Positions 6,126 through 61,506 of a DNA stretch of 64,000 bases are shown here, one piece after another. Every line of letters begins with the position of its first letter. Position 1 is the first letter of the stretch. The stretch covers positions 62,001-126,000 of the forward strand of contig RPFO01000138.1 of assembly GCA_009746045.1 (NCBI GenBank), written 5' to 3'. The DNA is from Mesostigma viride. Its lineage: Eukaryota > Streptophyta > Mesostigmatophyceae > Mesostigmatales > Mesostigmataceae. The notes beneath the pieces are model-generated. The model was not told the origin of the DNA and made no database searches. It saw only the letters and a program-made list of their open reading frames with translations. A program made the translations under genes and the position numbers.

Positions 6126-6163
6126 TCCCCCCGCTGGTCGGCCCACTTGGCGACCCGTCTGAC

Positions 6164-7807: not shown

Positions 7808-7996
7808 CTCCCCCTAGGGCAGCGTGCGGCTGCCTAGATAGATGATGTAGTTAGAATGTTGCTAGATAGATGTAGTATGTAGCCAATGTAGATAGATTAG
7901 ACCGGTAGGAATGTTTGCACCCATCCATCCATTCATCGGGGTTAATGCTCCGTGACTCCCCAACGGGAGCACGAGTCTAATTAATTAATTAATTAA

Positions 7997-8972: not shown

Positions 8973-9254
8973 TCCATCCATCCATCCATCCATCCATCCA
9001 TCCATCCATCCATCCATCCATCCATCCATCCATCCATCCATCCATCCATCCATCCATCCATCCATCCATCCATCCATCCATCCATCCATCCATCCATCCA
9101 TCCATCCATCCATCCATCCATCCATCCATCCATCCATCCATCCATCCATCCATCCATCCATCCATCCATCCATCCATCCATCCATCCATCCATCCATCCA
9201 TCCATCCATCCATCCATCCATCCATCCATCCATCCATCCATCCATCCATCCATT
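8973..9254 (+). repeat. (CATC)n microsatellite, about 282 bp
   Basis: Third CATC array, ending ccattgatcgggg; it directly follows the TTAA tail of the LINE fragment. Confidence 0.97.
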
Positions 9255-18055: not shown

Positions 18056-18595
18056 GCCGGCAGGGCGATGACGGTGACGGCCGTCACCGTCATCGCTCTC
18101 GACGGGCGTGATGAAAAGTACCTGGTTGATAGGCGGCAGCTATTCACAATATAGGCCGTTTTTTATTACTCCGAATAAAGAGTTAAGAGGTTGGCCCTCG
18201 GCAGGGCGATGACGGGGCGCTGACGGGGCGATGACGGGGCGATGACGGGGCGTTCACGCGCGTGATTAATAGAACCTGTTTGATAGGCAGCGGCTATTGG
18301 TAATATACTTTGTTGATTAAGAGAAGAGTTTAGATGTTGGCCCGTCGAGGGCGATGACGGTGACGAGCGTCACCGTCATCGCCCTCGACGGGCGTGATGA
18401 AAAGCCCATGTTTTATATGCGGTAGCTATTGGTAGTCCGTAGTATATAGGTCGTTGACTATCACTCCGAATAAAGAGTTAACAGGTTAAGGCCCTCGGCC
18501 GGGCGATGACGGGGCGATGACGGGGCGTTGACGCTCGTGATGAATAGGACCTGTTTGATAGGCGGCGGCTATTGCTAATATATAGGTCGGATATT
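18056..18595. repeat. array of about four 145-bp units with perfect palindromes
   Basis: Units share GGGCGATGACGG, then a GTGATGAA(T/A)A.. segment, TTGATAGGC.GC.GCTATT and CTCCGAATAAAGAGTTAA. Units 1 and 3 carry palindromes: 32 bases around 18064-18095 and two 24-base arms with a 4-base loop (GAGC) around 18342-18393. Units 2 and 4 instead carry short tandem GATGACGGGGC repeats. Confidence 0.8.
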
Positions 18596-18995
18596 TGTGT
18601 ACCACCCCCCTCCTTCCCGCGGCAGGTACGCAGCGACCCGCTGTTGTCCTGGCTGCAATTGTGTATCACTTGTACGGTATTTGTGTATCACTTGTACGGT
18701 ATTTGTGTATCACTTGTCCTCCTTCCCACGGCAGGTACGCAGCGACCCGCTGTTGTCCTGGCTGCAATTGTGTATCACTTGTACGGTATTTGTGTATCAC
18801 TTGTACGGTATTTGTGTATCACTTGTCCTCCTTCCCACGGCAGGTACGCAGCGACCCGCTGTTGTCCTGGCTGCAATTGTGTATCACTTGTACGGTATTT
18901 GTGTACCACCCCCCTCCTTCCCACGGCAGGTACGCAGCGCCCGGCTGTTGTCCTGGCTGCAGTTGTGTACCACCTGTACGGTATTTGTGTACCAC
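18596..18995 (+). repeat. compound tandem repeat, 21-bp units within 85-110-bp units
   Basis: TTGTGTATCACTTGTACGGTA recurs one to three times in each of about four larger units that also contain CCACGGCAGGTACGCAGCG and CTGTTGTCCTGGCTGCA. Long open frames across it in several frames (for example 18597-19436) are periodic translations of the repeat, not genes. Confidence 0.9.
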
Positions 18996-20915
<1,920 letters not shown>

Positions 20916-31651: not shown

Positions 31652-32009
31652 GTAAGTGGTGGGTGCTGGTAATTTCGGTCCTCGGTGGTGGCGGGAAGCA
31701 CAGCGGATATGTCACGGGTGTGCGTTTGTCACAAAAAAGCCTTCAAACGACGCCGCGAGATGCGCGCTTATGAGGCCACGGTGCAAGCCGCGCGCTTCAC
31801 GCGTGACGTCGCTAACGGGATTTGATTTTGAATTCCCGCCACAAATCCCCGCGAGTTTTGAAACCAGATTTGATGAGGTTGCTTCCAAACAAACGCTTTC
31901 GAGTTTCGATTCGACTTGCGTGTTTGCAACGCAGGCGGATTGGCTCTGATGTCAGAAGCGCGCCGCGCCGACAGCCACACGTAAGAGTCAAGGGCCTGGG
32001 CAGTGATGG
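31652..32009 (-). promoter_or_regulatory. upstream region of the reductase gene with an E2F-like site
   Basis: This interval between the reductase ATG and the copia LTR holds TTCCCGCC at 31833-31840 (E2F-like), a second CCCCGCG word at about 31847, and a TGACGTCGC CREB-like palindrome near 31804. E2F sites upstream of R2 genes drive S-phase expression in plants and animals; function here is inferred. The transcription start is not known. The copia insertion lies 358 bp from the ATG. Confidence 0.45.
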
Positions 32010-32441
32010 TGTCAGAAGTATCGACACACCTGCCTGAAACTAGTACTTATAGTTTAGTGCTAGCTCTGGACTACATGAACGGGCATGTGCCGCATGTTTA
32101 AGTTCTGTTCCATAAGTGACCCAGTCATTCTGTGACTGACCTTGAACTTTGGTTGTGAATGGTTGGCTTGAGATCACGTTATGATTGTAACTGCCACACA
32201 GTCAGAAAAGAACCGGTTTGGTGTGGCCACGTTGTAGGTAGATCATAACTGCTACCCAGTAGCTGAGCCTGGAATTGTTTAAAAGGCGAAGCTACGCACC
32301 TTGTTTGCTCTCTTAGTACCTCACACCTCACACACTCCTGTGGTGGAACTAGCAGCCGGCCAGCTGCCGACTGAGACTTATTTTTATCTGAGTGAAATAA
32401 AGTAAAACTTTGTGGCAAACATTGTTTTCTCACTCCTAACA
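32010..32441 (+). repeat. copia 5' LTR
   Basis: Starts TGTCAGAAGTATCG and ends CACTCCTAACA. It contains a TTTAAAAGG word at about 32278, a possible TATA-type promoter, and GTGAAATAAAGT near the end. Confidence 0.95.
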
Positions 32442-32456
32442 TGGCATCGGAGTGCG
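32442..32456 (+). other. copia primer-binding site
   Basis: TGGCATCGGAGTGC begins right after the LTR and resembles the TGGTATCAGAGC initiator-Met tRNA complement used by plant copia elements. Confidence 0.6.
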
Positions 32457-32688
32457 GTTCGCACGCCTTTCGACCTGCTTACCGCTGGTAAAAGTCGTTT
32501 CCGGAGGCTCTGCTCGCGGTTGACTTTAGATTTGTGTATTTCGGCGAGATTTGCATGACGACAGCGTAGGCGGAGGTTTGATTCCCGTCTGGCGCGTGAT
32601 GCGAAAGGTGCTTGGTTCGATTCCTGGCCGGAATCTATTGGCCAACGTTACCTTTTTTTCCGGAGTTTTTTGCTGTTTTTTTGCTGGA

Positions 32689-33687
32689 ATGGCTTCCGGC
32701 ATTCGCAGCCAGGTCGCTTCCGCGGGTCGCGCTGCTGGCAGTAACGATTTTGATGCCGATGACGCTGCCGGTCTGGCCGCTTTGACTGCATCATCCGTAA
32801 CTCTTACCGATTCGGGTCTCCCAGGCGAAGTATTTTTTGACGCAGCAGCTGGGCTGGCTGCCCTGGCTTTGCACCCGCCAGGTGGTGACGAGGACGCCGC
32901 CCACGGTGCTCCCGACGGTGAGAATCCGGCGGTTGACGGTGGTGGTTTGAGCCGCGGTACGGCGGGGGGGGGCCCCGCCCGAGCCTGCTTTGTGGCTTGC
33001 AAGGAGCTTTTGAAAGATGTTCGTGGGGTCAAGGTTTTTACCGGCTCAGATTGGACGCTGTGGATCCCTTTTAAGGACCATTTCTTGGGCCTTGTTTCCC
33101 TTTATGCTGGCCTCCTTGGAGTGCTGGCAGGTGTTGTCCAGAACGTGCAACTGGATCGGCTCCTTTACGTTGCCTTGTTGGCCGTCGTCGATGGGCCTGC
33201 GCGTGCCTTGATGCAGACGCTCCCCCTGGATCGTCGCCTGGGCAGTCTGGCCATCACCAAGCTCATCCAGGTCTATGAGCATGGCAAGCTCACCAAGTCC
33301 ATGCGTCTGGACTTGTGGAAACAAATGGCCCAACTTCGTCAAACTGCTCGCGAGACTGTGGAGCCGTATGTGAACCGCTCGGAACTGCTGTACGCCAAGC
33401 TACAGGCTGCAGGCATTACGTTCCCAGTCGCTGCCTTCATTGCCAGCGTCCTCAGCGGTCTGCGCGCCGAGTACAGGCCCGCGCTAATCTCCCTCCGTCT
33501 TGACGAGGTCGAGACTGTTCCGGTCCTGCGGCAGCGCCTGATGGAAGTTGAAGATCTGCTGACGGGTGGCCTCCCGTCCCCTGCAGATTCTGGCTCTGCC
33601 TCCAACCACGCATACCATACCCCTGGCCGGGGGCGTGGCCCACGGCATGGCGGTGCCCGCGGCAACGGCAACGGCAGCAGCAACGGA

Positions 33688-33718
<31 letters not shown>

Positions 33719-33735
33719 ACGGCACCGGCAACGGA

Positions 33736-33783
<48 letters not shown>

Positions 33784-34352
33784 CACGGCAACGGCCGCGC
33801 CCACGGCAATGGCCACGGCAACGGCCACGGCCATGGCGGCAGCAGCGGGGGGCGCGGCGGGCGCGGTGGTGGTCGCGGTGGTGGCGCAGGGGTCGGGCGT
33901 GGCCGCGGGCCGCCCTGCTCCGTCTGCGCCAAGCCTGGACATGACGCCGCCACCTGCTGGACTGCCCATCCCGCCCAGCGCCCTGCTCACCTCCGCGGTG
34001 ACGGCGCCGGGCACGCCCATCACACCGACGCAGGCCTGCCTCCCTTGGAGACGACGTACGCGTTCCACGTGGGTCGAGGCCCTTTGTGTGCTTCCCTGCG
34101 CGCCAACCCTTTGGGTGCTTCCCTGCGCGACGGTGTGCAGCCCCACGGGCAGGCCTCGCTTCGTCCCGTGCACGGCCTTGCGCCTTCCCCGTCCCGCTCG
34201 GGCAGTCGTCTCTCGGCACCCCGCCCCAGCACCTCCTCGGACTCGACGGCTGGTTCCTCAACCACCGCTCCTTCTGTGCTTCACACGGCCGCAACGGCCA
34301 CGGCTAGGTGTGCCCCGGAGTGGGTGGTTGACACGGGTGCCACGTACCACAT
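32689..34352 (+). CDS. copia Gag and start of protease (5' part of the split polyprotein)
   Basis: The first likely ATG is at 32689 (MASGIRSQVASAGRAAG), although the frame is open from 32551. A Gag capsid region follows (DWTLWIPFKDHFLGLVSLYAG, LWKQMAQLRQTARETVEPYV). Then comes a long Asn-Gly/Asn-Ser low-complexity stretch (about 33660-33830), a Gly/Arg-rich run, and one CCHC zinc knuckle (CSVCAKPGHDAATC). The frame reaches the aspartic protease site WVVDTGATYH and is cut after position 34352 by the gypsy element. The frame resumes at 45500. Confidence 0.92.
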
Positions 34353-34490
34353 TGTCGCGTCTGCGTGCCACAATCTCCGGCGCCACCATGGCGGCTGGCC
34401 ACTCAGCTTAATTTGGTAAAACCCAAATGAGCTGAGCTGACGTGCCTGCCTTAACTGCATGCCCTGTGGGGTGGGCGAGGACCTGTCCCA
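34353..34490 (-). repeat. detached 138-bp LTR segment at the left end of the gypsy insertion
   Basis: Identical to 35752-35889, the right part of the complete LTR. This segment is missing from the LTR at the other end (44247-45495), so the two pieces together make one LTR. It joins the complete LTR through 7 bases (tgattaa), matching a blunt LTR-LTR junction. Confidence 0.88.
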
Positions 34491-34496
34491 TGATTA

Positions 34497-34781
34497 ATGA
34501 AAAGAGGGCTCTCAGCCGAGGACAAGGAACTGTCCCTCGTGCCTGATGACCACCTTCTTGATCCCCTTGTGTACCGTCGCGTGCCGCGTTTGAATATCCT
34601 TGCTGGGGCGTTAGCTAGACGCTCCAACTACTCTAATTGCGACAATATGATGGTGCAAGAGGGTGCTTTTGCCTCCCCTGCTATAGAACAATGCTTTCAC
34701 AACACACACTTTGCACAGTCTGATGATGAAGCCGCACATGCGGAATTTATTGAGAAAGTTAATACAATTACAACACGTTGA
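34497..34781 (+). other. 94-codon antisense ORF within the gypsy LTR
   Basis: Opens MKRGLSAEDKELSLVPDDHL and is antisense to the gypsy genes. An identical frame occurs in the other LTR at 44246-44530. No family recognised; it may be chance or captured sequence. Confidence 0.3.
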
Positions 34782-35889
34782 TAGTCTCAATATCGATGCA
34801 CTCCATGCTCACGAGCCCGCAGTTAGGCAGCGCTCCATGACATGCTACCGGCCTTGCTCCCAAGGAAAGGGAGAAACACGAAGGCCACTAACGAGAGACT
34901 CGAAGAGACTACACGCTGCGTGAGAGTCCTCTTCGACTATGAACCAAACCATTCGTCATGCATGCCACACGCATGACACACGCCACACTTGTCAGTCCAG
35001 CCAGGAATGCCAAAACTATCTTGCTGCCTGAACCATGCAAATAGAAACCGCATTCCAGTTGCCGTCCTGGCTTTCTACCACACATGCCAACAAAAGCAGG
35101 AAGGCATCCCGACAAATCTAAATTGCTACCCTGTTGCCGATCTCATCTCCTAGAGGCTCCGGCATTTCTGTCCCTGGGAATGTCCGACATTGAGTCACGT
35201 CCAGCAAGGTCGAAGCATAATATCCTTCAGACAATCTGCACGCTCACACCTTGCGTGTGAGTGGCCCAGCAAACATTGCGTCTAATCGTTCCTTTCTAGA
35301 AGAAATCCCTTTGTAGGGCTGCCAGCGATTTCGCATTCATTCCAGCGATCTGGCTCCGCACCGCAAATTGTCCTTTTCCATTTTCTGTCCAGTCCTCATA
35401 ACGTTGACCCGCTATTCTACACCACAAAGACACCTGGCCTGTCAATAGCCTCGGCGCTGTTGAAGTCCAGCAGTCCAGCTTCAGCTCCAGCTGTCCACTA
35501 ACACGCGTATGATCCTCTCGACGCTGCGCACTTGTGCTGCCGTCCGCTCAAGTCAGTGCTGCGCGCCCAGCTGTGCCTGGCCCGGCGCGCATGCACGTAC
35601 ACTTTCGTCCGCTCTTATGCTGCAAGTGCTAGTGTCCCCCCCGGTCACTAGCCTTTGTCGAAAATGCGTAGAAAACAAATTCCTTGCGCACGTCACCGGT
35701 CTTGTGCATAGTGGGCGCCGCCCGGATGACATAGCTCGCGTCCGTGACAGCTGTCGCGTCTGCGTGCCACAATCTCCGGCGCCACCATGGCGGCTGGCCA
35801 CTCAGCTTAATTTGGTAAAACCCAAATGAGCTGAGCTGACGTGCCTGCCTTAACTGCATGCCCTGTGGGGTGGGCGAGGACCTGTCCCA
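34498..35889 (-). repeat. gypsy LTR, complete copy (3' LTR in element orientation)
   Basis: On the minus strand it starts TGGGACAGG, directly after a purine tract (GAGGGGGGG, 35894-35902), and ends CTCTTTTCA. It contains the palindrome GACAGCTGTC centred at 35750, where the permuted insertion was opened. A 94-codon frame on the opposite strand (34497-34781) lies at one edge. Confidence 0.88.
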
Positions 35890-35920
35890 TGATTCCCCCC
35901 CTCGCTGGCGACCGGCCCCA

Positions 35921-36400
35921 TCACGAAGACAGCGATCGTACCAAGACAAGGGCAGCGGTGACCGCAGTCAAGCTGCGGGAGGTAAACTGCGCAGCGGTGC
36001 ACACTGGACAAAACCAATCCCCCTCCGGAATGCTGGTGACCACTGGCTGCAAGCACTGCATGTGCCAACCACAGTTACACTGATCACACAATAACATGGA
36101 CTCCGCCTGATCGACCCGGTGACAAACCTGACACTGGGCGTCCTTGACTCGGCGAGACGTGTGCGGTTGGAGGTCGTGGACCAAATTGGGCAGCGAGCAG
36201 GGACTGAGATTGCTGAGGTTGTCAGTCGTACGGCTCCCGTCGGCGCCCTCCAAAATTGCCACTCCCGATGGTTTGATAGCCACAATGCGCAAAATGGTGG
36301 GCCCCGCCTCCACATCCAAAGTGTGCTTCAGCTGAGTGCGCAGGAAAACATACTGCCCTGGCCTAAACCGCAGCTGGCGAGCCATGTATGCGCCCCCCCG
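35921..36400 (-). CDS. gypsy Pol C-terminus: integrase tail and PHD finger
   Basis: This frame continues the integrase after a break in a run of seven G (minus strand, near 36392). It reads MARQLRFRPGQYVFLRTQL, a small beta-rich integrase tail (ILRIVAIKPSGVAILEGADG), then a C4HC3 PHD finger: CQVC, CDQC, GWHMQC, and CPVC at the end of IPEGDWFCPVC (about 36130-35990). It stops at 35921. In many gypsy elements a chromodomain takes this position and steers integration to modified histones; a PHD finger could play the same part here. The one-base break may be an assembly error. Confidence 0.88.
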   Translation of the reverse strand, partial: RGGAYMARQLRFRPGQYVFLRTQLKHTLDVEAGPTILRIVAIKPSGVAILEGADGSRTTDNLSNLSPCSLPNLVHDLQPHTSRRVKDAQCQVCHRVDQAESMLLCDQCNCGWHMQCLQPVVTSIPEGDWFCPVCTAAQFTSRSLTAVTAALVLVRSLSS

Positions 36401-39400
36401 GCGCTGAGCGTACGCAGGGAGTCCCTGTGCTGAGCAATGAACAAGTTGTTCATCGCGATGGGCATGACCTTCTTAAAAGTCTCTGCCCTGGCCAGCACCT
36501 CAACCAAAAATTGCTGAGCGTTGTCGAAGGCCATGGGTTCGGGGTGCGCAACCTGTGCCTCCGTAGGCAAAAGAGGATTACGCCCGAACAGAAGGAAATA
36601 CGGGGAGAAGGTAGCGAGAGACTCCTGGGGAGACATGCGATAACCCATGGCAATCCATGCCAACTCGCGATCCCACCTGGCCGACTCCGGCACCTGCAGG
36701 CTCCACTTGCGCAGCGCCTGCTTGACGGTCTGCACCAATCTCTCAGCCAAACCATTGGCCTGAGGATGCTCCCGAGAAGTGCGACGGTGATCAATAAGAC
36801 ATCCATCCAGCAACTCCTGGAACTCACCCCTGAACTCACCACCCTGGTCCGTGACTACCTCCGCGGGAGCCCCAAACCTGGTTATGATGTCCGCAAAATG
36901 CTTCGCTGTGGTAGCGGCATGCTTGTCAGCAATGGGGATCAACTCAACCCATTTGCTAAAGCTCTCCACGCATACCATGACATAGAGGTTGCCGTCAGGG
37001 CTCTCCTGAAACGGCCCGCACAGATCGACGTGCCAGCGATAAAACAAGCCCTTGATGGGAAGCGACATCAGCTCCTTGGCACCATGATCTGCGCTAAAGT
37101 TAGCCTTGGTTCGAGCACACGGGACACAGCTGGCCACTACCTGGGCCACCGTGTGTCGCATGTTATTCCACCAATAGCTGGTCCGTACGAGGCTGAGCGT
37201 GCGATTGCCACCCAAGTGACCATACCGCTCGTGGTACGCCTGCACTATAGCAACGCGCTTGTCAGGCGGTGGGACGACCACCCTACGCTTGCCCAACAGC
37301 TTGTACAAAACCCCATCTTCCCAACCATAGGTTGCAGCCCTGTGCTGCACCCTGTTCAACTCCGTTGCCTTCTGAGCAGGAGTCCAATCGACTGGAGTAG
37401 GAGTCAAGACAGCACCCTGCACTTGCTCCAACACTCGACCATCTAGCCAGATATCAGCGGTGTAGCAATCAGCAAGAGAGCTACGCGCTAAGAGAGCCTG
37501 CACAGCGATCAGCTGCTGCAGAGAAGGATCAATGTCAAAGGACAGAGACCTACCCTCTTCCATAGCGCACACAGCTTTGGATGGCGTGAATGGCGACGGC
37601 CGCACCGGGTCGTCGCTGATGCCGAAGTCCGCCACAGAGTACTCGACACTGCGCCACCACGCCTCCTCCTCATCGTCGGCCGCATACCCAGCAGCGTTCA
37701 CAAAGACCACAGAACCAGACGAGCCCTCGGCACCCATGGCCCGGGCTCCAGTGTGGTCAACAGTGGTAGGCATGGCGTATCGGGATAGCACATCGGCGTT
37801 GACATGGTCCTTGCCGGCCCGATGCACAATGGTCATGTGGTACTCCTGGATAATCATGGCCCATCGGGCGAGCTTACCCGTCAGGTTGGTGTTGGTCATT
37901 AGCCACTGAAGCGGCTGGTGGTCTGTCACCAGAGTAAACACGCGCCCAAATAAATACGGGCGAAAGTGCTTGATGGCCCACACCACAGCCAGTGCCTCCC
38001 CCTCATAGGAAGAATACCGGCTCTCCGCTGGGTTGTTGCTGCGACTAGCATAAGCAATAACGTGCTCGCGCCCATCACCATCCTTTTGCGCCAAGACCGC
38101 ACCCAGTCCTACCTTGGACCAGTCGGTATATAACACAAATGGCAAAGCATAGTCAGGGGCGCGCAGAATCGGTGCCGACGTGAGCTCCTGCTTGATTGTC
38201 TCGATGGCGCGTTGCTGTGCGGGACCCCACGCCCACACGCACCCCTTCTTGAGTAACTCGGTCAAGGGCTTCACCTTGCTGCTGAAGTTCTCAATGTAAC
38301 CTCGGTAATAGCCAGCCAAACCCAAATACGCCCGCACCCCTGAGACATCCGTGGGTACGGCGGCCTGCGCAATGGATTCGACCTTGGCGGCATCAGGCGT
38401 CCGGCCACCCGGCACAATCTGATGACCAAGGAATGAGAGGGTCCGCTGGGCGAACTTGCACTTCTCAGGGTGCAGCCGCATATTATGCTCCTCGAGAGCC
38501 AAGCGAACCTGCTCCAAGTGCGCCAGGTGCTCCTCAAATGTCGCGCTAAAGACGATTACATCATCAATGTAACAAGCGGCGAAAGGAAGACCTGCAAGCA
38601 CTTTGTCCATAGCTCGTTGGAAAACAGCACTAGCGTTGCGGTGCCCAAAGGGCATGCGCACCCACTCATACAAATTGCCGCCCCCCAGAATGCAAGCTTC
38701 CGCTGATCCTCCGGCGCAACTGCGATCTGATGAAAGCCGCTACGCAGGTCCAGCGAGGACACAAACTTCACATGAGGAGATATCTTATCCAGGACATCAT
38801 CCACACGTGGCATGGGGTAACGGTCCACGGGTGTGTGTGCATTCAGCAACCGCAGATCGGTGGCCATGCGCATACCCGTCCATGCCCCGGTGATAGCGTC
38901 CTTCTTGGGCGCAACGACAACGGCAGCAGCATAGCTGGAGGAAGATTGCCTGATGATACCGGCATCCTCTAACTCCTTGCATTGCTCGGCTACAAAATCC
39001 AACTCGGCCTGACTCAGGCGATGCTGGCGTCGGAACAAAGGAGTGTCAGTGTCCAATGGAACACGCATGGTCCCACCATTGAAACACCCCAGTTCATCAC
39101 TTGTGAAAGCGAAGGCCCCCCTTGCAGTGCCTAGCCACTTTAGCATGGCTGAGCGCTGCGCATCAGAAAGGTGTTCGCCAATAGCCCAGGGGTGCGTATC
39201 CGCGGGATCACCCACAGCTACCGCATGTGCCTCAAGATGCGGCGCCCTAGCCGCATCGTCGTGGAACAAGGAAAAGGCTGCCACACCTGGTGTGACACCC
39301 ACCGCCGGAGCCTCGCGTGCCGCACGGTGTATTACCCGATGCAGCGTGGGCTCGCCGGCCAGCACGGTGCTGGTCAGCAGGGCGGTCATGAGAATGATAG

Positions 39401-39535
39401 TCCACACCTGTCGCAGACGCCACCCCCATGCTGATGAAGTCCCCGTCGCTGCAGGGCGCTTCAGTTTGGCTGCGCGCGCCTCAACCTGCTGAGGCGGATT
39501 GGCTGGGGACGCCCCCCCAGACTGGCGCACGGCAA
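36400..39535 (-). CDS. gypsy reverse transcriptase, RNase H and integrase
   Basis: In order on the minus strand: a membrane-like hydrophobic run (VWTIILMTALLTSTVLAG, about 39380), then RT from LDTDTPLFRRQHRLSQAELD, LRLLNAHTPVDRYPMPRVDD, SSLDLRSGFHQIAV, MPFGHRNASAVFQRAMD and the catalytic YIDDVIVFS near 38570. RNase H follows (FVLYTDWSKVGLGAVLAQ, EGEALAVVWAIKHFRPYL). Integrase has an HHCC zinc site (HERYGHLGGN...CVPCARTKA), then the DDE core (WHVDLCGPF, VVTDQGGEF, HPQANGLAERLVQTVKQAL). One base is missing from a run of six G near 38685, inside RT, splitting the frame. The integrase frame ends at about 36328 after the next break. Confidence 0.93.
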
Positions 39536-40510
39536 CCGATGCAAGCAGCACATACCCGACCTGCAACACCGACATAGCCTGGCCTATCAAAGACCAGCGC
39601 TCACTCTCGAGCACGCCCGGCAGCGCCGAGGCCCCGACATGAAAACCCATGCTGGCCTCACGAAATTCTGCGGGTGGCTGCACCAACAGACCGGTGGTAG
39701 TGTCCCAAACGAGACCCTTACCCCGATCACGGTATGCTGTCGACCCTTGGTAACTGACCAGGGTCGGCAGTGCACACATGGGGCTCCCGACCCGGTTGAC
39801 GCGTGCATACGGTGGGCGATCCTCGCTATCCACCTTCTGCGTGACTAGGTGGGAAGGCAATGCTACCTCCGCAGACACACTCGGATGCTGCCTTGCTACG
39901 GCCCCAAGACCGCCTGCACACCGGTCGCACACGCCACGTTGGTCCAATAGGCACGCAAACGATGCGTGAGCCCACCCAGCCCTGCGTTGTCACACACGAT
40001 GGGCTCCCCCAGGAGTGCCACGATTGTAGCCCAGTCCTCCCGCACCGCCTGATGTGGGCTGTCACCCGCCACAACGTTCTCAAACAGATACGCAGGCGGA
40101 TGGGGCTGACGCGACTGCAACAGTCCCACCACACGCAACAGTTCCCAGAACAGCGCGCTACGCGGATCGGCTAGCCCCCGCCCTTGCCCTGCCTGGCTCA
40201 GGCCCTGGCACTCCCAACCCGCAATTACCAAGTCGATGGCATGATGCCTGCGCAACAACTGCTGCACCTGCACCTCACCGATGGCTCGGATATCTTGAGG
40301 ACATTCCCCAAACGGGTCACGCCATGCTGATGGCGGAAACTGCGCGGGATACTCTCGCGACAACACGCCACAGTGACTGAAGTACACCTGACGCGCCTTG
40401 TGCGATGGCTCTACCGCGATGAGTTTACGGCACACGCCGCCTGCGGCCAAAAAGCCTGCAATGCCCCCTCCGATCCCCGCAAACAGTTCCAACACTACCG
40501 CACCCTTGGC
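39536..40510 (-). CDS. C5-cytosine DNA methyltransferase domain inside the gypsy polyprotein
   Basis: Between protease and RT lies a full-length methyltransferase fold. Motif I is VVLELFAGIGGG (SAM binding, about 40490). IAVEPSHKARQVY is motif II. Motif IV is DLVIAGWECQGLS with the catalytic Cys near 40210; the usual Pro before it is Glu. Motif VI is LFENV (about 40080), and motif VIII is LTHRLRAYW. After a one-base loss in a G run near 39910, the next frame supplies a short target-recognition stretch, REASMGF (motif IX-like) and LIGQAMSVLQVGYVL (motif X). The domain order is complete. Such enzymes transfer a methyl group to carbon 5 of cytosine. Retrotransposon-borne methyltransferases are known from dinoflagellates and a charophyte. 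Confidence 0.9.
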
Positions 40511-40869
40511 AAAATCAGGGGCCTGCGGTAAGATTGCAGCAGAAAAATTACCTTGGGCCTCCGAGACACCCGGTTGCACCAAAGTGAGGCCATGGCTGGC
40601 CATCTGAGGAATGGTGATGACGGCTTCAGTCACCCGCTTGCGCATAGCCAGCTGCCGCGTGGACGTCACAGCATCCAGCGACCACTGCGTGCGCATCTTG
40701 GCAATGCTCGCCGTTGGCTGAGGCAGCACCGTCCGATGCTTGTCCCACGCCGATGAGCCCGCCGCCCGTACCTCCACCATGCTGACCTCCACCACGCCCG
40801 CAGCCGCGAAGGGTTGAGGCGTGCAGCCCCGGCTGAAGAACTGAAGCATGAGACCGGCACACTGGCCCG

Positions 40870-43800
40870 CTTCAGGCCAGCCCCATCCCAATCAGGGATG
40901 TAAGATGCCTCCTCCGCCCTATAGTCCACCTGAACCATGGCGCGAGCAAGGACATCCACCCCGAGTAGTGCGGAATATCCACACTTGTTGACCACCAGCG
41001 CATACGCGGACACGGTGGTCATGCTAGAGGCGCGCAACGGATTGAAAATCACGTTGACTTTAACCGCCGTCATAGCGTACGGCTTACTAGCCGGACCCTG
41101 CCAACCTGACACAGACACGGGGCTTTCTACTAAGCCACCGTTCTCGTAGGTCAGGTTCAGCATGGTGGCCAAGTCTGTGCTGATGACTAGCGGCTGAGCA
41201 CCGCTATCAAGCTTGACTGCGCCAACCAACGGACATGTCACCATGTCGCTCCATACATCTCCACAGGCTCCAACTGCTTGGAACGCTATGGACGGCTCAC
41301 CATTGGGGTATGGAACCACCGTGGGAACCTGGGGAACTGCACTAGTGCGCTGCTGGCTACTTGTGCTGACCACTCCCGCTTGCACCACGGGCACTGCGGC
41401 TTCTACCGGCTGACGCCCGTAGGTGACGGACTCAGAATTGCGCAAGGTGCGCACATCATGCCCATCTGCGAACAACTGGATCTCGGACACAACCGACCCC
41501 AGCCACTCAACCCCCTTCTGCCCGAAGGTGTCGACCACCTGCCGTGCTGAAAACATGGGTACGTCCACAATGAACGGCATTGGGTACACAGGCGCCAATC
41601 GCCTACGCTGCTCCAGCCCAGCAGGGTTCGCATGCTCAAAAGCAGATTGCACCCCAGCCAGCGGCATGGAAAAGGACGCGGGCAACTGCCCGGCAGGCAA
41701 CATGGGTGCCTGCTGAAAAGAAAGCGGGCTGCGTGCCTGCTTGCCTTTGGTAGCCTCCGCAGCGTTGATCTCGACGTCACCCGGCATGGGCGCCCAGAAT
41801 GGGTCCTCCCGGTACACCGTCGCGAATTGGTTGGGGGGCGCCGTCGCCTCCTCACCATGCTTGATGGCAGCCACCTGGGCTTCCATCGAGTCGGTCTTGC
41901 CCGCCATCTCGGCGAAGTGGACCGTCTTGATGCCCGCGGCTGGACACTTGTTCATCAGGTGCCACTTCGTGTCTGCCCCATGCGGCTTCGTGCAGCGGCT
42001 TGGACACTCGCGACTAAGGTGCCCATCCTTGTCGCAAAGGTAACATTTACCGCGTGACGGGGTGGGTGCGCCCAGCGCGCCTTGCACGCCCTGCGCCTCC
42101 TGAGTCCCATCCGATGACGGCGGACGACCGCCTCCGCCTCGACCACCACCGCGACCCCGACCACCGTAGCCACTGCCGCCGCCACCACGACTGACACCGC
42201 CACTGCCACCCTGACCGCCACCGCCGCTGCCACCCTGACCGCCACCGCCGCTGCCCCCGTGACCGGCGTTGCCACCACCCTGAGTGCCGACATATTCACC
42301 GCGCCCCGCACCAGGCAGCCGCTGGCCACCCTTGACCGCGATGGCCTTCTCCATCTCAGCCATCTTCTTGCGCATCTCAGCCAGCTCAGACGAGATACCC
42401 TTCTCGCCTTCCGCACGCTTCCTGAGCAGCCGCTTGAATGCTGCACAGAGAGTCACCAAAGTCCACTCCCCACCGGGCGGCTCCGGAAGATCGATGGCCA
42501 GCAGGGGCACTGCACTCCGCCATAACCGGCAAGCCTTGGTCTGCGTATAATCAGGCACTTTGCCCGCAAACGCGAGAAGCCGGTCAAGGGAGAAAGCCGG
42601 ATCCTCACCCTCGGCGACGGTGAACGCTCCATTCCATTCCGCGATGGCCTTGACGTGCTCAACTGGGTACTCCAGCCGCAGTTGCTGCCACAGCTGCTCT
42701 GCCGGGTCGACATCGAAGATGATCGAGTCGAGATCCGGTGTGCCCATGTCCGTGAGCGCAAACCATATGTCCGTGCGATGACATCGGTCCACGAGCGCTC
42801 GGTAATGCTGGACCAAAACCTGGACCTTCTTCTTGGTCAGGTCATGGAAAAAAAGGTGAATAAAATCCATCACCATCTCATGGCGAAGAGGATACCCCGA
42901 GGCATAACGATAAGTGTTACAATGAGCTCGGAAGAGCTCATAGGCTTCCTCTAAAGTCGCACCCGTGCCTGCTGAGGTGAACTTCTCGCGAAGCTCCACC
43001 TTGGGCAGCGATGGCACACGAGTGGATTCGCCATGCACGCCGTACGGCATGCGGTGGGGTCGCTGGACGTCGTCGCCCTCACCCCATGGTATGCTGGCTA
43101 CCTCCCGATCGACTTGGCCCCAGCCGAAGTCTGACCGAGTGCCGCCAAGCCTGGGCCGCCCTGCGGTGCCACCCAACGGCGTTGCTGCCGCCGTCATGGG
43201 TGGCCGACCTGTGCTAAACAAGCCACCTGATGCTCCCCCCCTGGGGGCTGCACCATACCCGCCGCGCCACGATAACGTGCCTTGGTTGGGTGCCCGTAGG
43301 TTCCCCCCCAGCGTATAAGATGCGTCGGCAGTCGACCGGGTGCCTACCCGACCGACGTTCGGCTGCAGCTCGTCATCCTGCGCCATTTCCCCGTCGCCCC
43401 GCCGTTGACCGCTTGGTCCGACGCGTGGCTGACTGGGCTCAACGTTGCGTAGTGGACCTGTCCCACTGCGCTCTTCGTCGAAGTGTCCGCGTTGGTCGCG
43501 CAGCGCCTCATGTCGCCGCGCTTCCTCGGCAGCGGCCTCCTCGTCGGCAGCCTGCCTGGCCTCGGCGTCGCGTTGGGCCGCAGCTTGGCAGGCGCGTGCA
43601 GCTTCCGTGGTTGCCTCCGCCTGCCGCCGTTGCTCAGCGCGCTCCGTAGCACGCCTCGCTTCAGCCGTAGATTCCGCGCGCTCCAAAGCAAGTCGCACAG
43701 TTTCTTCAACAAGCGTCGCCTGTTGCGATAACTGCGTCGCTTGCTGAGCTCGGAGTGCCGCCAGCTCTGCCGCTTGCTCTTGCAGCAGGCGCAGCACTTG

Positions 43801-44085
43801 GGTAAGAGCACCACCGTCCCCTGCCGAAGAAAGGGAAGGCGCTCCATTACCTAACAAAGCGGTGTCCGCACTAGTGCCGAGACGACCGCTGGGCGGGTCA
43901 GTTGCTTGACCGCCCGTAGCTGCCGGCGCTGACCCACCACTGCCTGATGCTGTGGGGTCAGTTCCTGACATGTTGATGGTGGTATCGACCCTGGAGAGCT
44001 CCTGCCCGTCGGTGTCGACGCCCGTGTTGGCACAGCCTGCGTGGCTTGCCAAAAACGCTGTGACCGACCTAGTGTGATATGACAT
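40870..44085 (-). CDS. gypsy Gag and protease
   Basis: The frame is open from 44097, but no ATG occurs before 44085; a better start may be 43971 (MSGTDPTASGSGG). A long Ala/Glu/Arg coiled-coil region (LTQVLRLLQEQAAELAALRA) is followed by a capsid-like region (LEEAYELFRAHCNTYRYASG, LWQQLRLEYPVEHVKAIAEW). A Gly-rich linker then leads to a CCHC knuckle (CYLCDKDGHLSREC, about 42040). The protease site is VKLDSGAQPLVIST (about 41210) with the later LLGVDVLARAMV. Around 40870 the frame passes into that of the methyltransferase, again beside a run of G, so Gag to integrase may be one polyprotein. Confidence 0.88.
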
Positions 44086-44246
44086 AAACTGCCACAACCA
44101 CTACCAAGTAGCAACGGTCTAATCTGAAAGACTTAATGGTTGATCAGGCCACTATGTGTGCTAGTCTTCCCCAGAAAACTGCACACCGTCTCTCTTTGCT
44201 GAAATGAAAATGTTCCTTTGCAGATGGAGCTAGTCTCTTCGAGTAA

Positions 44247-45495
44247 TGAAAAGAGGGCTCTCAGCCGAGGACAAGGAACTGTCCCTCGTGCCTGATGACC
44301 ACCTTCTTGATCCCCTTGTGTACCGTCGCGTGCCGCGTTTGAATATCCTTGCTGGGGCGTTAGCTAGACGCTCCAACTACTCTAATTGCGACAATATGAT
44401 GGTGCAAGAGGGTGCTTTTGCCTCCCCTGCTATAGAACAATGCTTTCACAACACACACTTTGCACAGTCTGATGATGAAGCCGCACATGCGGAATTTATT
44501 GAGAAAGTTAATACAATTACAACACGTTGATAGTCTCAATATCGATGCACTCCATGCTCACGAGCCCGCAGTTAGGCAGCGCTCCATGACATGCTACCGG
44601 CCTTGCTCCCAAGGAAAGGGAGAAACACGAAGGCCACTAACGAGAGACTCGAAGAGACTACACGCTGCGTGAGAGTCCTCTTCGACTATGAACCAAACCA
44701 TTCGTCATGCCACACGCATGACACACGCCACACTTGTCAGTCCAGCCAGGAATGCCAAAACTATCTTGCTGCCTGAACCATGCAAATAGAAACCGCATTC
44801 CAGTTGCCGTCCTGGCTTTCTACCACACATGCCAACAAAAGCAGGAAGGCATCCCGACAAATCTAAATTGCTACCCTGTTGCCGATCTCATCTCCTAGAG
44901 GCTCCGGCATTTCTGTCCCTGGGAATGTCCGACATTGAGTCACGTCCAGCAAGGTCGAAGCATAATATCCTTCAGACAATCTGCACGCTCACACCTTGCG
45001 TGTGAGTGGCCCAGCAAACATTGCGTCTAATCGTTCCTTTCTAGAAGAAATCCCTTTGTAGGGCTGCCAGCGATTTCGCATTCATTCCAGCGATCTGGCT
45101 CCGCACCGCAAATTGTCCTTTTCCATTTTCTGTCCAGTCCTCATAACGTTGACCCGCTATTCTACACCACAAAGACACCTGGCCTGTCAATAGCCTCGGC
45201 GCTGTTGAAGTCCAGCAGTCCAGCTTCAGCTCCAGCTGTCCACTAACACGCGTATGATCCTCTCGACGCTGCGCACTTGTGCTGCCGTCCGCTCAAGTCA
45301 GTGCTGCGCGCCCAGCTGTGCCTGGCCCGGCGCGCATGCACGTACACTTTCGTCCGCTCTTATGCTGCAAGTGCTAGTGTCCCCCCCCGGTCACTAGCCT
45401 TTGTCGAAAATGCGTAGAAAACAAATTCCTTGCGCACGTCACCGGTCTTGTGCATAGTGGGCGCCGCCCGGATGACATAGCTCGCGTCCGTGACA
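44247..45495 (-). repeat. gypsy LTR, incomplete copy at the 5' end of the element
   Basis: Matches 34498-35749 with very few differences (for example one 4-base indel near 34962/44709 and a C-run length change). It lacks the last 140 bp (gc plus the 138-bp segment). On the minus strand it ends CTCTTTTCA, followed by TTACTCGAAGAGACTAGCTCC where a primer site would lie. Confidence 0.88.
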
Positions 45496-48400
45496 ACATG
45501 ACGCCTCACCGGGTGGACTTTGGCGATGGATTTGATCCCGCCTTCCGGCTGCGCATCACCGGCTCGGGCGGCAATCTGCATGCGGGCGGCAGGGGCCCTC
45601 TGCTTCTCCGGCTCGGCACCCCGGACGTGCACCTCGGCCCAGCTTTGTATGTCCCAGGCCTTCAGGCCCGCCTACTCTCGGTGAGCCAGCTCTTTAAAGC
45701 CGGCCATGATGTGGACTTTAAGCACCTGCGCCTCACTTTGGGGACCCGCACGTTCCCCCTCGTGGAGTGTGACGGCATTTACTTGCTCCGCGGGGTGGCG
45801 CCCCATGCCCTCGCCACATCGGCCGCCCCCGTGGACCTGATGCAGTGGCACCTGCGCCTCGGACACGCTGGCGCGGATCGTATTGCTCGGCTAGCCGCCG
45901 ACCCCGCCTCAAACATGGTGACCCACGGTCCCAAGGCTCCCACGTGTCCTTCCTGCCCTGCCGGTCACTTGCGGCGGAGCAGCTTTCCCCCCAGCACGAC
46001 GCCACGCTGCGCGACCCCTCGCCATCGCCTGCACTGCGACCTGCTAGGTCCCATGCGGACCCCTGCCGTGTTGGGGGACTGGCGGTATGTCCTGGGCATC
46101 ACGGATGAAGCCACTCGTTTTCACTGGGTTTACTTCTTGAAGACGAAGGACGCTGCCGTTGGGAGCCTGCGTCACTTCCTGGCCACGGAGATCAAGCCGT
46201 TCCGGGCGTCCGCGGCCACGGCGCCTGTGGAGCTTCGCTCCGACCAAGACGCGGTTTTCACTGGCCAGGACTGGCGCGCCGTCTGCGCCGAGTATGGCGT
46301 GCGGCAAGAGTTCTCGTCCCCCTATACGCCGGAGCAGAACGGCGTGGCGGAGCGATTCTGGGGCGTCGCAGTTAGCATGACCAGGAGCATGCTGGCGCAT
46401 GCTGGCCTCGGCAAGGAGTTCTGGGCTCTAGCCTTTGCATGCGCCATCTACATCATCAACAGGCTGCCCTGCCGCAGCAACCCGGAGCACGCAACGCCCT
46501 ACTTCCTCATGTATGGGCGCCCTGCGGATTTATCCGGCATGCGTGTGTTTGGCTGCCCCTCCCACGTCTTGGTTGAGGGGGCAGCCCGTGAGAAGTTTGA
46601 TTCTCGCGCTGAGGATGGCCTCTTCGTGGGATACAAGCTTGACTCCCCGGCCTACCTCGTATGGGTGCCCGACAAGGCGACGGGCGGCGGGCGTGTCATC
46701 GAGCGCAAGCACGTGCAGTTCGACGAGACGTGGCGCAACCGGGCCCCGCAGGCTGCGCAGTGGCTCCCGGCGGCCCCCTTTGCGGAGGCCGACCTCTTTC
46801 CCGCCGACATGCTGACTCCTGCCCCTTTGCAGTTACCCTCTGCCTCTGCCGAGGACTCTGGGGGGCCGGCAACGCCCTCCACTGCCTTGCCCGCAGGCCG
46901 TGAGGACAGCTATGTCAGCATCGGGGGGACTCCTGAGCGTTTCGTTCTCCCCCCGGCCGCCGCTGCGGCCATCCAGGCACTTGTGCGGAACGGCCCTGCT
47001 CCGACGGCTCCGGCTCCTGCCTCGGCGCCGACATCTTACCTCACCGTGTCAGATGCTCGACAGCATGCCCCTCTGTTGCGCGGACAGGCCTCTGGCCACT
47101 CGCGTTCTGCGGCGTCATATGAACACGCCGGGGCGGGGATGCCTCCGCCGCATTTGAGTACCTCGGTTGACCTGGAGAGCACGGCTGACAGCACCGGCTA
47201 TTCTCCTCCGGCGTCCCCTGGTGCCTCTGCAGGTCTCCTCCCCGTGTGGGGTTCCCGTGGTGCTGCCTTGTGTGGCGACCTTTCTCATGGCAGTAACACC
47301 CCCGCTCCCCCTGGTTTCGGGGGCGATGATGTATTGGATGACGCACTTTCTTCCTGGCCGGATCAACCTGTCACCAAGGCTGCACGGATCCACGCGCATC
47401 ACTCACTTGTCGCTGACCTGTGCTTCGCTGCTGCTTTTCATAGCCAGCCTGCGTCCGTGCCCTCCTCTCCCGCTGCCGCCCTTGCCTTGCCGGAATGGCG
47501 CACGGCCATGGAGAGTGAGCTGGCCAGCCTCCAGGAGCACCAGGTTTACGAGCTTCTGCATATGCGTGATCTTCCGCGCGGTGCCAAGCTCCTACCCACC
47601 AAGTGGGTCTTCGCCCAGAAAGCTGATGGGCGGTGCAAGGCCCGGTTTGTGTGCAAGGGGTTTGCACAGCGCGAGGGCATTGATTTCGGTGAGACTTTTG
47701 CTCCCACCGTCCGTGCTGCCACCGTGCGCCTGGGCTTGGCTCGTGCTGGCACTGCTGGCCACCCCATCCGGCAGCTGGATGTCCGCACCGCGTTCCTCTA
47801 TGCTGAGTTGGAGGAGGACGTGTATGTCCTTCCCCCCAAGGGCTTTGAGGAGCGCGACCCCACTGGCCAAACGTACCTCTGGCGCCTCCGGCGGAGCCTC
47901 TATGGGCTCAAACAGGCGCCCCGGAACTGGCACCACACGCTCCGGGACTACCTCATCCATGAGACTGGCGCTGTCCAGAGCACCACGGACACGTGTCTGT
48001 TCCTGTATGTTGGTGGTTTTGCCTTCGTCCATGTCGACGATCTCCTGGTCTCCCACTCCTCGGCGGAGTGGCTATCGCAGTGGACCCAACGGGTGTCCCA
48101 GCGCTTCCAGATCACCGAGACGGATGCCCCCTCCCTCTTTCTGGGGGTCTCCCTGGTCCTCGACCCGCCGGCGCGCACAGTTTTTCTGCACCAAGGCCCG
48201 TATCTGGAGGCCCTCGCTGAGCGCTTTGGGGTCTCCCCACGGGCGGTGAAGACGCCCGTCGTCCCCAACACCCCCCGTGGTGAGGGGGGGCTTCTCAACG
48301 CGGACGACACTCGCGTCTACCAAGCGATCACCGGGGCACTCCTGTATGCGATGGGATGCACTCGGCCTGACCTGGCATTCGCAGTCAACCTGCTGACTCA

Positions 48401-48967
48401 GAATATGAAAAACCCTACTGTAAGCGACCTTGGGCTGGCACGCCGGGTGCTTCAGTACGCGGTACACACCAAGGACCTGGGTCTGTCCTACTCGGGGCAG
48501 GGGGGGCTGGTGGCCTACTCGGATGCCGACTGGGCAAACGATCCTGTGGACCGCAAGTCAATCACTGGCAACGTGGTCATGTACCGCGGTGCTGCGGTGG
48601 AGTGGACCAGTCGCAAGCAGCCCACTCCAGCCCTGTCCACCTGTGAGGCCGAGTACATGGCCCTGTGCGGTGTCACGCAGCAGGTGGTCCCCTTCTCACC
48701 ATCACCAAGGAGTTGGGTGACCCGGCCTCAGGGCCAATTCAGGTGTTTTGCGACAACACTGGTGCTGTGGCTCTGTCACGAGACCCTGTTCACCCTCGGC
48801 GTACCAAGCACATCGACGTCAAGTACCACTACATTCGCGCGAAGGTCGCGGATGGCACCGTTCAGGTGTCTCACCTTCCTGGGGCAGCGATGATCGCCGA
48901 CATGCTCACCAAGGCACTACCTGAGCCACGTTTTGTGGAGCTCAGACACAAGTTGTTGGGTATTTGA
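45496..48967 (+). CDS. copia protease remainder, integrase, RT and RNase H (3' part of the split polyprotein)
   Basis: Resumes with MTPHRVDFGDGFDP, the sequence expected after the protease DTGATYH. Integrase: zinc motif WHLRLGHAGADRI...CPSC, core CDLLGPMRTP, RSDQDAVFTG, TPEQNGVAERF, and the C-terminal FGCPSHV, EDGLFVGY. RT: LPTKWVFAQKADG, QLDVRTAFLYAELEEDVYV, SLYGLKQAPRNWH and the catalytic FVHVDDLLVS (about 48025). RNase H: AYSDADWANDPVDRKSITG, SRKQPTPALSTCEAEYMAL. One base is missing in a C run near 48695; the true C-terminus continues in the next frame (DNTGAVALSRDP, MLTKALPEPRF) to a stop at 48967. Confidence 0.95.
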
Positions 48968-49099
48968 GTTACTGGCAATTAGTGATGAGACAACATAAGG
49001 ACACACTTGCTAGCCTGTGACACTGGTCCCATACTACAGTTCTTTTAGTGAACATTTGTTCTGGCTTGCTTGAGTTTGTTTTCCGGCCTGTGTGCCGAG

Positions 49100-49108
49100 T
49101 AAGGGGGG
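49100..49108 (+). other. copia polypurine tract
   Basis: TAAGGGGGG directly precedes the 3' LTR; it would prime plus-strand DNA synthesis. Confidence 0.8.
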
Positions 49109-49540
49109 TGTCAGAAGTATCGACACACCTGCCTGAAACTAGTACTTATAGTTTAGTGCTAGCTCTGGACTACATGAACGGGCATGTGCCGCATGTTTAA
49201 GTTCTGTTCCATAAGTGACCCAGTCATTCTGTGACTGACCTTGAACTTTGGTTGTGAATGGTTGGCTTGAGATCACGTTATGATTGTAACTGCCACACAG
49301 TCAGAAAAGAACCGGTTTGGTGTGGCCACGTTGTAGGTAGATCATAACTGCTACCCAGTAGCTGAGCCTGGAATTGTTTAAAAGGCGAAGCTACGCACCT
49401 TGTTTGCTCTCTTAGTACCTCACACCTCACACACTCCTGTGGTGGAACTAGCAGCCGGCCAGCTGCCGACTGAGACTTATTTTTATCTGAGTGAAATAAA
49501 GTAAAACTTTGTGGCAAACATTGTTTTCTCACTCCTAACA
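49109..49540 (+). repeat. copia 3' LTR
   Basis: Same 432 bases as the 5' LTR, followed by the target duplication GATGG. Confidence 0.95.
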
Positions 49541-49545
49541 GATGG

Positions 49546-50609
49546 CATGGGCTCATGGCATGGCAGTTGGCATGGAGACGTCACCCTGGCCGCCACTCGT
49601 TTCTGTGTGAGCCGCACTGGCCCGGTACGCTCCGGTACGACGGTCGGAACTATCTCGGATATTTGTTCGTACGCAGCAGTACAAGTTCAAGCGATTCCGG
49701 ATAATGAAGCTACCAAAATCTGATTGCCTTCACATCTAAACAAAATGGCAGGTAATTTTGATCAGACCCTGATCAGACCAGGAATCACGCAACTATGAGC
49801 CTCCGCGGTAGTATGTAGCACGCCGTACGAGCCCGTTCCTGTCCCCTTATTTGCGCGGTTCCCCGTCCGGCTCCACGATATTAGACCATTATCCGGCCCT
49901 CGGCCGCTGTACAATCTCTGCCTGGCCATGACCGGCGTTGAATCCAACAACAACAACAACAACCGTCCGGCTCCGCTGGCCTGTTTGCAACGTCCCAATG
50001 CAGGCAGTCATGACTAGAGAGATGCACCATTCTTTCTCATTTCTGACGATTACGCACGCAAATTTATTTGCCGCGAGGCTGCACAGGAATTGCCGCTGCT
50101 TAAACTACTCGGCAAAGGGAAATGACAGTGAAATTTCTAGTCGCGATGCCGCTTATTTCGTCGCAATAGGCAGGGAGTCGCCGCGCGTGGACTCCTGACC
50201 TGCGACATTGTTTCGGCACATGCCCGTACCAGTCGTTTTGGAAGGGCATGAAAATGCTGCTTTGTGCGCTGACTACGTCCACACTACGTCGCTGTTCCAG
50301 AGGCGGGTGGGCGAGACAAATTCACACGTAGTACCTGGACTTAATGGGAAACCGCCTCCGTAATTGTAATGGCCGCCGCTTTGTCCGGCTGTGCCTAGCA
50401 GACTGATCTGTACCAGGAACGGTGACATTAACTCATGTGAGGTGTAATTGCAAGCATACGCGTCTAACGAGCATGGGCCAGTGCAGCGTCACGGAGAAGA
50501 ATTTAAGAAGCATGGGGCAACGCGAGAAAAGTAGTGTAAGCGTCTCTCAATCCTGCTGACCTCGGCAGGCGCATTGCTGCCGGCACGGGTGAGCTGAGAT
50601 TCTCTCCCA
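49546..50609 (+). other. intergenic region upstream of the transporter
   Basis: No gene seen. Contains a short (CAA)n run near 49950 and a direct repeat CTGATCAGACC near 49765. The last few hundred bases presumably hold the transporter promoter and 5' UTR. Confidence 0.5.
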
Positions 50610-61064: not shown

Positions 61065-61506
61065 ATGGATGATGCCTTCAGAATTTAGCCAAGCCATGCC
61101 TATGATGGGACCCCATGGATTTTGCATTAAGAATTTAGCCATGCTATGCCTGTGCAGAGAGATGCCCTCTGTTGAGAAGCCATGCCTTAGCTCTTGTATA
61201 GCCATGATTTCTGGCCTGCGCTGGTTGTCTCCTTGATGATGATCTTCCCCCACATGACATGCTCCCCCTTAGCTGGGCATAACGTGATAGATCATGAGGG
61301 TGCAGGTGCCCTGGTGCACCTCTAGAGCAAGGGTAGCTTACATTCCCACCCTTGCAGGAAGTAGCCCAGAATGTATTAAAAGCCATATGCCCCTTCTCAG
61401 GCATATGTGCTACATGAACTCCCAACGGAGTTATGTTCCTAATTAGTTAATTAATTAATTAATTAATTAATGCCTATGCAGAGAGATGCTCTCTGTCGAG
61501 AAGCCA

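Follow-up and report, generated by a model that had tools for sequence, protein, structure and literature searches.

Retroelements that encode a C5-cytosine DNA methyltransferase have been described before. The closest such system is KnitGypsy-Dnmt3 of the charophyte Klebsormidium nitens, which combines gypsy domains with DIRS-like repeats in the order A-coding-B-A-B and is presented by its authors, in the parts of that paper considered here, as an independent acquisition in the Klebsormidium lineage (de Mendoza et al. 2018; PMC5890265). According to excerpts of a 2019 opinion paper, green algae and charophytes are among the organisms that harbor Ty3/gypsy and DIRS elements with a methylase (PMC6338049), and the reports from streptophytes and dinoflagellates are taken up again in the excerpted text of a 2025 paper (PMC12344493). 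In the literature searched, which covered few subscription journals or preprints and some sources in part, no description of a PHD finger and a methyltransferase in one gypsy Pol was found, and the word gypsy is absent from the main text of two Mesostigma genome papers. Here we report a Ty3/gypsy element of Mesostigma viride that joins these two modules. It lies in a stretch of 64,000 nucleotides (assembly GCA_009746045.1, contig RPFO01000138.1, positions 62,001 to 126,000 of the forward strand), hereafter the window.

We hold with moderate confidence that this element, which is of the KnitGypsy-Dnmt3 kind, likely methylates its own new DNA and that its PHD finger likely steers it to chromatin of a given histone state. 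New here are the split-repeat ends with their junctions, the finding that the PHD finger is common in the clade, the single change in enzyme position, and the decay of the enzyme in five relatives.

Coding capacity, copies and relatives

In the window copy, the minus-strand coding sequence at 35921-44097 is divided among five open pieces that overlap and lie in three frames; from first to last they specify a CCHC knuckle, a stretch resembling a protease, the C5-methyltransferase, reverse transcriptase (RT), RNase H, integrase and the PHD finger (Table 1). Pfam matches on that strand (DNA_methylase PF00145, 1.3e-12; RT_RNaseH, 3.5e-39; PHD, 4e-10; also RVT_1, Integrase_H2C2 and rve) bear out the collinear Gag-protease, methyltransferase, RT-RNaseH-integrase, PHD order on one strand that a first, sequence-only reading of this DNA had proposed; the protease was assigned only by similarity to protein P0001 and by a D-[SG]-G-A motif. 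The succession of protease, RT, RNase H and an integrase with H2C2 finger and rve core is that of a Ty3/gypsy Pol. No Pfam match to a tyrosine recombinase was found in the element, which has an rve integrase instead and so does not qualify as a DIRS element. The catalytic Cys, preceded by Glu (GWECQGLS, motif IV), and motifs I, VI, VIII, IX and X of C5-methyltransferases were all located as that reading had named them, IX and X in another frame. The frame is broken in the linker that joins protease to methyltransferase, downstream of motif VIII, within the RT and ahead of the PHD finger.

In the genome, the methyltransferase stretch is matched almost identically at least 40 times, counting the window copy (40 of 224 first-look candidates were scored; each match extends over 994-996 of 996 bases and is given as 100% identical), and a M. 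viride gene model, P0004 (JGI Mesvir1), aligns at 100% over 48% of the query part. A second Mesostigma family, with ∼50% protein identity and tens of copies, retains the protease-methyltransferase order. One copy, L045, has no stop from protease to PHD and forms a single frame of 1,688 amino acids. Ten copies chosen for the longest match all carry motifs I-X in one frame, nine of them breaking or ending further on, and when eight loci are added to these ten the count is 11 of 18. Because copies elsewhere have an open frame, the breaks in the window copy are its own, common to some copies, or assembly errors. One match of the first family (G000:C1912:4405675-4407102) lies within an open frame of 12,852 amino acids, perhaps from masked or unknown bases.

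A search with the RT-to-PHD part returned 705 proteins among 7,990 scored candidates; the best 120 of these 705 were examined, and together with the Mesostigma frame they make up a set of 121 polyproteins. A methyltransferase is present in 61 of the 121, before the RT in 18 and between RNase H and integrase in 43, and a PHD finger in 88; the latter is a common feature of the methyltransferase-bearing Ty3 clade. An element-borne C5-methyltransferase with a C-terminal PHD finger in a Ty3/gypsy Pol, as first read from the sequence, is therefore no chance finding or one-off capture, given at least 40 near-identical copies and 61 of 121 polyproteins, and the search for other genomic copies of the same order that had been proposed as a check found them, together with the second family and the frame open from protease to PHD. 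The expectation that the combination and the position would be unusual was not upheld, since both recur in a large clade and the position after RNase H is the commoner among the relatives examined. Of the two outcomes that the same reading had named as refuting, full-length copies without the methyltransferase and a tree placement among host enzymes of this species, neither was seen, though no search aimed at the former was made and the trees hold no host Dnmt rows. For 32 relatives with RT, integrase and PHD, 30 of the records begin less than 350 amino acids before the RT, so the absence of a methyltransferase is not inferable from them. Besides the K. nitens, Chlamydomonas reinhardtii and Pleodorina proteins, most of the examined polyproteins are metagenomic, and to call these algal is therefore an inference. 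The nearest enzymes found lie in elements wherever the context is known; no relative was confirmed among IMG/VR viral contigs, and the 243 phage records with a match are all below 60% identity, none spanning 80% of the query.

The RT-integrase tree was built from 101 of the 121 rows (left out were 18 with RT and integrase, one with integrase before RT, and one with RT, integrase and PHD). All 61 methyltransferase-bearing rows fall in one 93-row group (support 100 in the Shimodaira-Hasegawa-like approximate likelihood ratio test), which holds one protein each of K. nitens, C. reinhardtii and Pleodorina starrii. The Mesostigma element and the K. nitens polyprotein thus share RT-integrase descent, the order within the group being weak. 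In this tree the position of the enzyme changes once, the after-RNase-H group comprising 44 rows (support 99). A methyltransferase tree of 56 rows, one bacterial-type outgroup included and six Cys-less rows, two fragments and one duplicate left out, likewise has a single change of position (38-row group, 98/84), and in this tree, which is without host Dnmt3 rows, the Mesostigma and K. nitens enzymes fall in a 51-row group (90/58). Because the trees are without host Dnmt3 rows, one capture followed by one move would be only the simplest reading of the methyltransferase in this clade; on the same trees, the independent acquisition described for Klebsormidium may be a single branch within a clade that is older. 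The placement of four long rows (P0061, P0109, P0023 and P0121) is uncertain, and these may stem from separate captures.

By sequence profile and predicted fold, the element methyltransferase is of the Dnmt3 class. A profile of eight element enzymes ranked DNMT3A first among PDB sequences (3.2e-20) and then DNMT3B, with the plant enzymes 4onj (4.4e-13) and DRM2 (2.2e-10), and then HhaI (7e-9), lower in the same search. In the predicted model of the window's methyltransferase piece the core lies mostly above 85 in pLDDT (predicted local distance difference test) and residues 1-112 below 50; all 50 Foldseek matches listed for it are DNMT3 complexes, with template-modelling scores by model length of 0.40-0.45, one third of the model being disordered. 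A bacterial-type enzyme was left open by the single-sequence search, and profile and fold favor Dnmt3. Motif IV, across 64 rows, reads ECQ in 39, PCQ in 14 and other Cys forms in three, with no Cys in the column in six and two fragments; the catalytic-column Cys is accordingly present in 56 of 64, and the EN of motif VI is retained in 56 of 64. The Glu before the Cys, which the sequence-only reading took as the mark of a divergent clade, is real, but at least nine switches between Glu and Pro on the tree (55 rows) dismiss it as a clade mark. Between the two Mesostigma families, over 350 codons, the proportion of differing sites is 0.743 at silent sites, which are saturated, and 0.246 at protein-changing sites (pS and pN, respectively); so few protein changes despite saturated silent sites speak for long purifying selection on the methyltransferase.

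Split-repeat ends and insertion

In the direction of the element, the layout is A1, coding region, polypurine tract, B1, GC, A2, B2. A plain reading with two long terminal repeats (LTRs) was ruled out, as a copy of B (143 bp) lies after A2 whereas none lies before A1; without two complete direct LTRs at its ends, the element is gypsy by its Pol and atypical by its ends. The earlier placement of the element at 35921..44085 between LTRs needs correction, as the whole is larger (34353-45495) and is not bounded by two plain LTRs. Its ends are fixed by a 4-bp duplication of ACAT and by the read-through obtained when the flanks are rejoined across the insertion: the gypsy element sits inside the protease gene of a Ty1/copia element, and rejoining restores the copia protease reading, WVVDTGATYHMT. 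The element has ends of the form TG...CA, and a 4-bp target-site duplication, within the 4-6 bp of Ty3/gypsy LTR retrotransposons, occurs in all eight copies with both ends legible, namely the window copy and seven of 10 others fetched. Between A1 and A2 there is no substitution, and the five gap columns of their alignment come from a 4-base indel and a single base in a C run; the insertion is therefore young, and the Ty3/gypsy element of M. viride is apparently recently mobile. A tRNA primer site after A1 was not recognized on inspection by eye, and no Rfam family reached its gathering score within the element.

Of 30 pieces, the window's among them, 21 show a legible B1-A2-B2 arrangement; in the remaining nine it was illegible in the sequence fetched. 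In all 21 legible copies the B1/A2 junction is the identical palindrome GACAGCTGTC, and the junction of polypurine tract and B1 is the same in 20 of 21, the remaining one having a shorter G run. The A2/B2 joint takes ten forms among 20 legible copies, several of them ordinary point changes nearby. A single extra base stands exactly at A2/B2 in three of the 20 alignable copies (of 29), and it differs each time (G, A and C); the remaining insertions alter repeat units, lengthen a T run by one base or, in individual copies, add 3-5 bases.

We propose that, if transcription starts and ends within A, ordinary LTR-type synthesis with the polypurine tract before B1 would yield an LTR equal to B+A. 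The cDNA with B+A ends would then be joined end to end, and integrase would cut at the palindromic B/A junction, giving a permuted A-coding-B-A-B insert. It is possible, though short of probable, that the layout stems instead from DIRS-like reverse transcription and not from end joining of conventional LTR cDNA, as it is typical of DIRS elements and, in the legends to Figs. 1 and 4 of the Klebsormidium paper, is given for KnitGypsy-Dnmt3 as well (PMC5890265). Against this route stand the DDE-type integrase, the polypurine tract exactly before B1, the TG...CA ends and the 4-bp target-site duplications, all of them LTR-type features, and the single extra bases at A2/B2, which fit end joining.

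Table 1. Positions, in the window, of the element, its repeats and coding domains, and the insertion site
Feature	Position	Strand	Remarks
Whole element	34353..45495	minus	11,143 bp; termini TGTC...GACA; set by target-site duplication and restored copia frame
Target-site duplication ACAT, left	34349..34352
Target-site duplication ACAT, right	45496..45499
Repeat A1, element 5' end	44245..45495	minus	1,251 bp
Gag-protease frame	40666..44097	minus	CCHC knuckle ∼41998-42051; protease-like stretch ∼40840-41355
Methyltransferase part 1, motifs I-VIII	39896..40891	minus	Catalytic Cys codon 40208-40210 in GWECQGLS
Methyltransferase part 2, motifs IX-X	39564..39947	minus	Different frame in window copy (open stretch 38556-39947)
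Reverse transcriptase	38416..38909	minus	Split over two frames in window copy
RNase H	37840..38154	minus
Integrase, H2C2 zinc finger and rve core	36763..37272	minus
PHD finger, C-terminal side of integrase	35999..36133	minus
Polypurine tract adjoining B1	35895..35904	minus
Repeat B1, directly after polypurine tract	35752..35894	minus	143 bp
Palindromic B1/A2 junction GACA-GC-TGTC	35746..35755	minus
Repeat A2	34496..35749	minus	1,254 bp
Repeat B2, element 3' end	34353..34495	minus	100% identical to B1
Ty1/copia element hosting the gypsy element	32008..49548	plus

The host Ty1/copia element (32008-49548) has LTRs that are 99.5% identical and an open frame of 1,147 amino acids downstream of the insertion. 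Elsewhere in the window, 4629-7807 holds endonuclease and RT frames (Exo_endo_phos, RVT_1), likely of non-LTR type. At 7996-8596 and 8972-9253 lie (ATCC)n arrays, 601 and 282 bases long and each with a 100% match, and the stretches 7622-8277 and 8598-9253 are 99% alike. Two 2-kb copies (10061-12034 and 61505-63478) are 99.6% identical and have a relative in inverted orientation at 13163-14384, and a tandem array of 22-bp and 109-bp units lies at 18588-19003.

Possible roles of the enzyme and the PHD finger

The favored reading would work as follows. Inside the particle the protease would free the methyltransferase and the integrase-PHD part, and the methyltransferase would act on double-stranded element cDNA, while the PHD finger would bias integration toward chromatin without methylation of histone H3 at lysine 4 (H3K4). 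The best solved relatives of the finger are those of BAZ2B, Lid, BAZ2A, CHD4, WSTF and ATXR5, KDM5-type fingers included, and several of the BAZ2A/B, KDM5-type, CHD4 and ATXR5 fingers read H3 unmethylated at K4. The coupling of methyltransferase and PHD may resemble that of DNMT3A, in which the ADD domain recognizes H3K4 when it carries no methylation. The sequence-only reading had likewise suggested that such a pair of reader and writer might methylate the element's own copies or its target sites and so let it pass as silent chromatin. Self-methylation, PHD targeting and circle-junction integration are inferred proposals. A more far-reaching version strikes us as doubtful when taken whole: an ancient green-algal Ty3 lineage, with a Dnmt3 writer and an H3K4me0-type PHD reader, would methylate its circularized cDNA and insert it in silent chromatin, its integrase using the two-LTR-circle junction and inserting the element circularly permuted, the volvocine enzyme having decayed to a pseudoenzyme with its fold kept.

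Several observations weigh against the favored reading. The window copy is frame-broken, and the methyltransferase motifs are broken in seven of 18 copies. The activity of the enzyme is predicted from sequence and fold, its motif IV carries Glu where Pro is usual, and the PHD ligand is assigned only by similarity. CpG depletion, as a trace of self-methylation, was not seen in the element (observed/expected 0.86, vs 0.85 in the copia flanks and 0.81 in the rest of the window), and within the second family, where changes are very few, the ratio of protein-changing to silent substitution rates (dN/dS) comes to 0.33-0.54. The RT tree was built by a quick procedure that used no mixture model, and near the Mesostigma row its forks are weak and the tree program warned that long branches meet; in the methyltransferase tree a single bacterial-type row serves as outgroup, and host Dnmt sequences are absent. 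The extra-base signal at A2/B2 comes from three copies, two of which had been noticed ahead of the second set. When expressed on its own in yeast, the KnitGypsy-Dnmt3 domain produced no methylation, a result its authors, in the text consulted, call inconclusive (PMC5890265). Finally, five relatives without the active-site motifs imply that activity is not required throughout the clade.

These five (P0041, P0049, P0052, P0057 and P0060, from C. reinhardtii, Pleodorina and three more) match the whole methyltransferase domain with E-values of 1e-46 to 1e-72 under a model built without them; the ENV motif is gone in all five and the Cys in four, that of Pleodorina being one column off. Judged from these alignments, the fold is kept and the active-site motifs are lost in five volvocine-type relatives; a sixth row, P0034, has a weak domain match (3e-7). 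Together with the inactivity of KnitGypsy-Dnmt3 in yeast, they would fit a methyltransferase that is mainly a structural or nucleic-acid-binding part of Pol, with catalysis dispensable. We consider this unlikely, because the Cys and the EN are each retained in the 56 of 64 rows noted above (two of the eight rows lacking the Cys are fragments), because both Mesostigma families retain the enzyme although their silent sites are saturated, and because the five decayed rows group together in the RT tree, which is what a single late loss would produce. A low probability is also assigned to the methyltransferase acting in trans, on host chromatin, target sites or RNA, and not on its own cDNA; in favor of such action are the de novo nature of the Dnmt3 class, the activity of Dnmt3 enzymes on nucleosomal DNA, and the adjacency of enzyme and integrase in 43 of 61 polyproteins. 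That the methyltransferase was captured at this locus alone, or that the assembly artificially fused its gene with a retrotransposon, as the broken frame of the window copy might suggest, can practically be dismissed in view of the genomic matches, the second family, the single open frame in another copy and the same architecture in other records.

An element known from one charophyte is now placed in a broad clade, in which the enzyme occurs in two positions, intact and decayed, and so allows comparison; why a parasite carries an enzyme of the class that silences parasites is a question now open to such comparison. If the ends do mean circle-junction integration, they bear on an old idea about retroviral integration, one that was given up for retroviruses. 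Available text on M. viride reports 5-methylcytosine (5mC), mostly in CG (PMC6947507), and with near-identical copies in a sequenced unicellular alga that has 5mC, the methylation of brand-new insertions is measurable.

Comparison with described systems

Chromodomain gypsy elements (chromoviruses) carry a histone-reader module at the C-terminal end of the integrase, as does the Mesostigma element, which has a PHD finger instead of the chromodomain and a methyltransferase in Pol in addition. The Ginger1 DNA transposons with Ulp1 and PHD share the gypsy-type integrase, which in one family listed in the source excerpted has a PHD finger on its C-terminal side, but, as described there, they are DNA transposons with terminal inverted repeats and without a methyltransferase (PMC2836005). 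SymbioDIRS-Dnmt3 and SymbioLINE-Dnmt of dinoflagellates are likewise retroelements with a C5-methyltransferase, and SymbioDIRS-Dnmt3 has the repeat layout and the Dnmt3 class in common with the Mesostigma element; according to the main text, however, these elements use tyrosine recombinase or LINE (long interspersed nuclear element) machinery and not a DDE-type integrase, and a PHD finger does not appear in that text (PMC5890265).

KnitGypsy-Dnmt3 differs in its host, in having PCQ where Mesostigma has ECQ, and in sequence, with 30% identity over the methyltransferase piece. The Mesostigma element has a PHD finger, whereas none was found in the partial K. nitens polyprotein P0063 and none is mentioned in the main text of PMC5890265; P0063, which is not stated to be the authors' own KnitGypsy-Dnmt3 copy, has PF00145 before the RT. 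In both elements a Dnmt3-class domain lies within the frame of a gypsy-type Pol, and both join gypsy domains to A-coding-B-A-B repeats, with no introns. By its Pol, its repeat layout and its enzyme class, the Mesostigma element is thus of the KnitGypsy-Dnmt3 kind.

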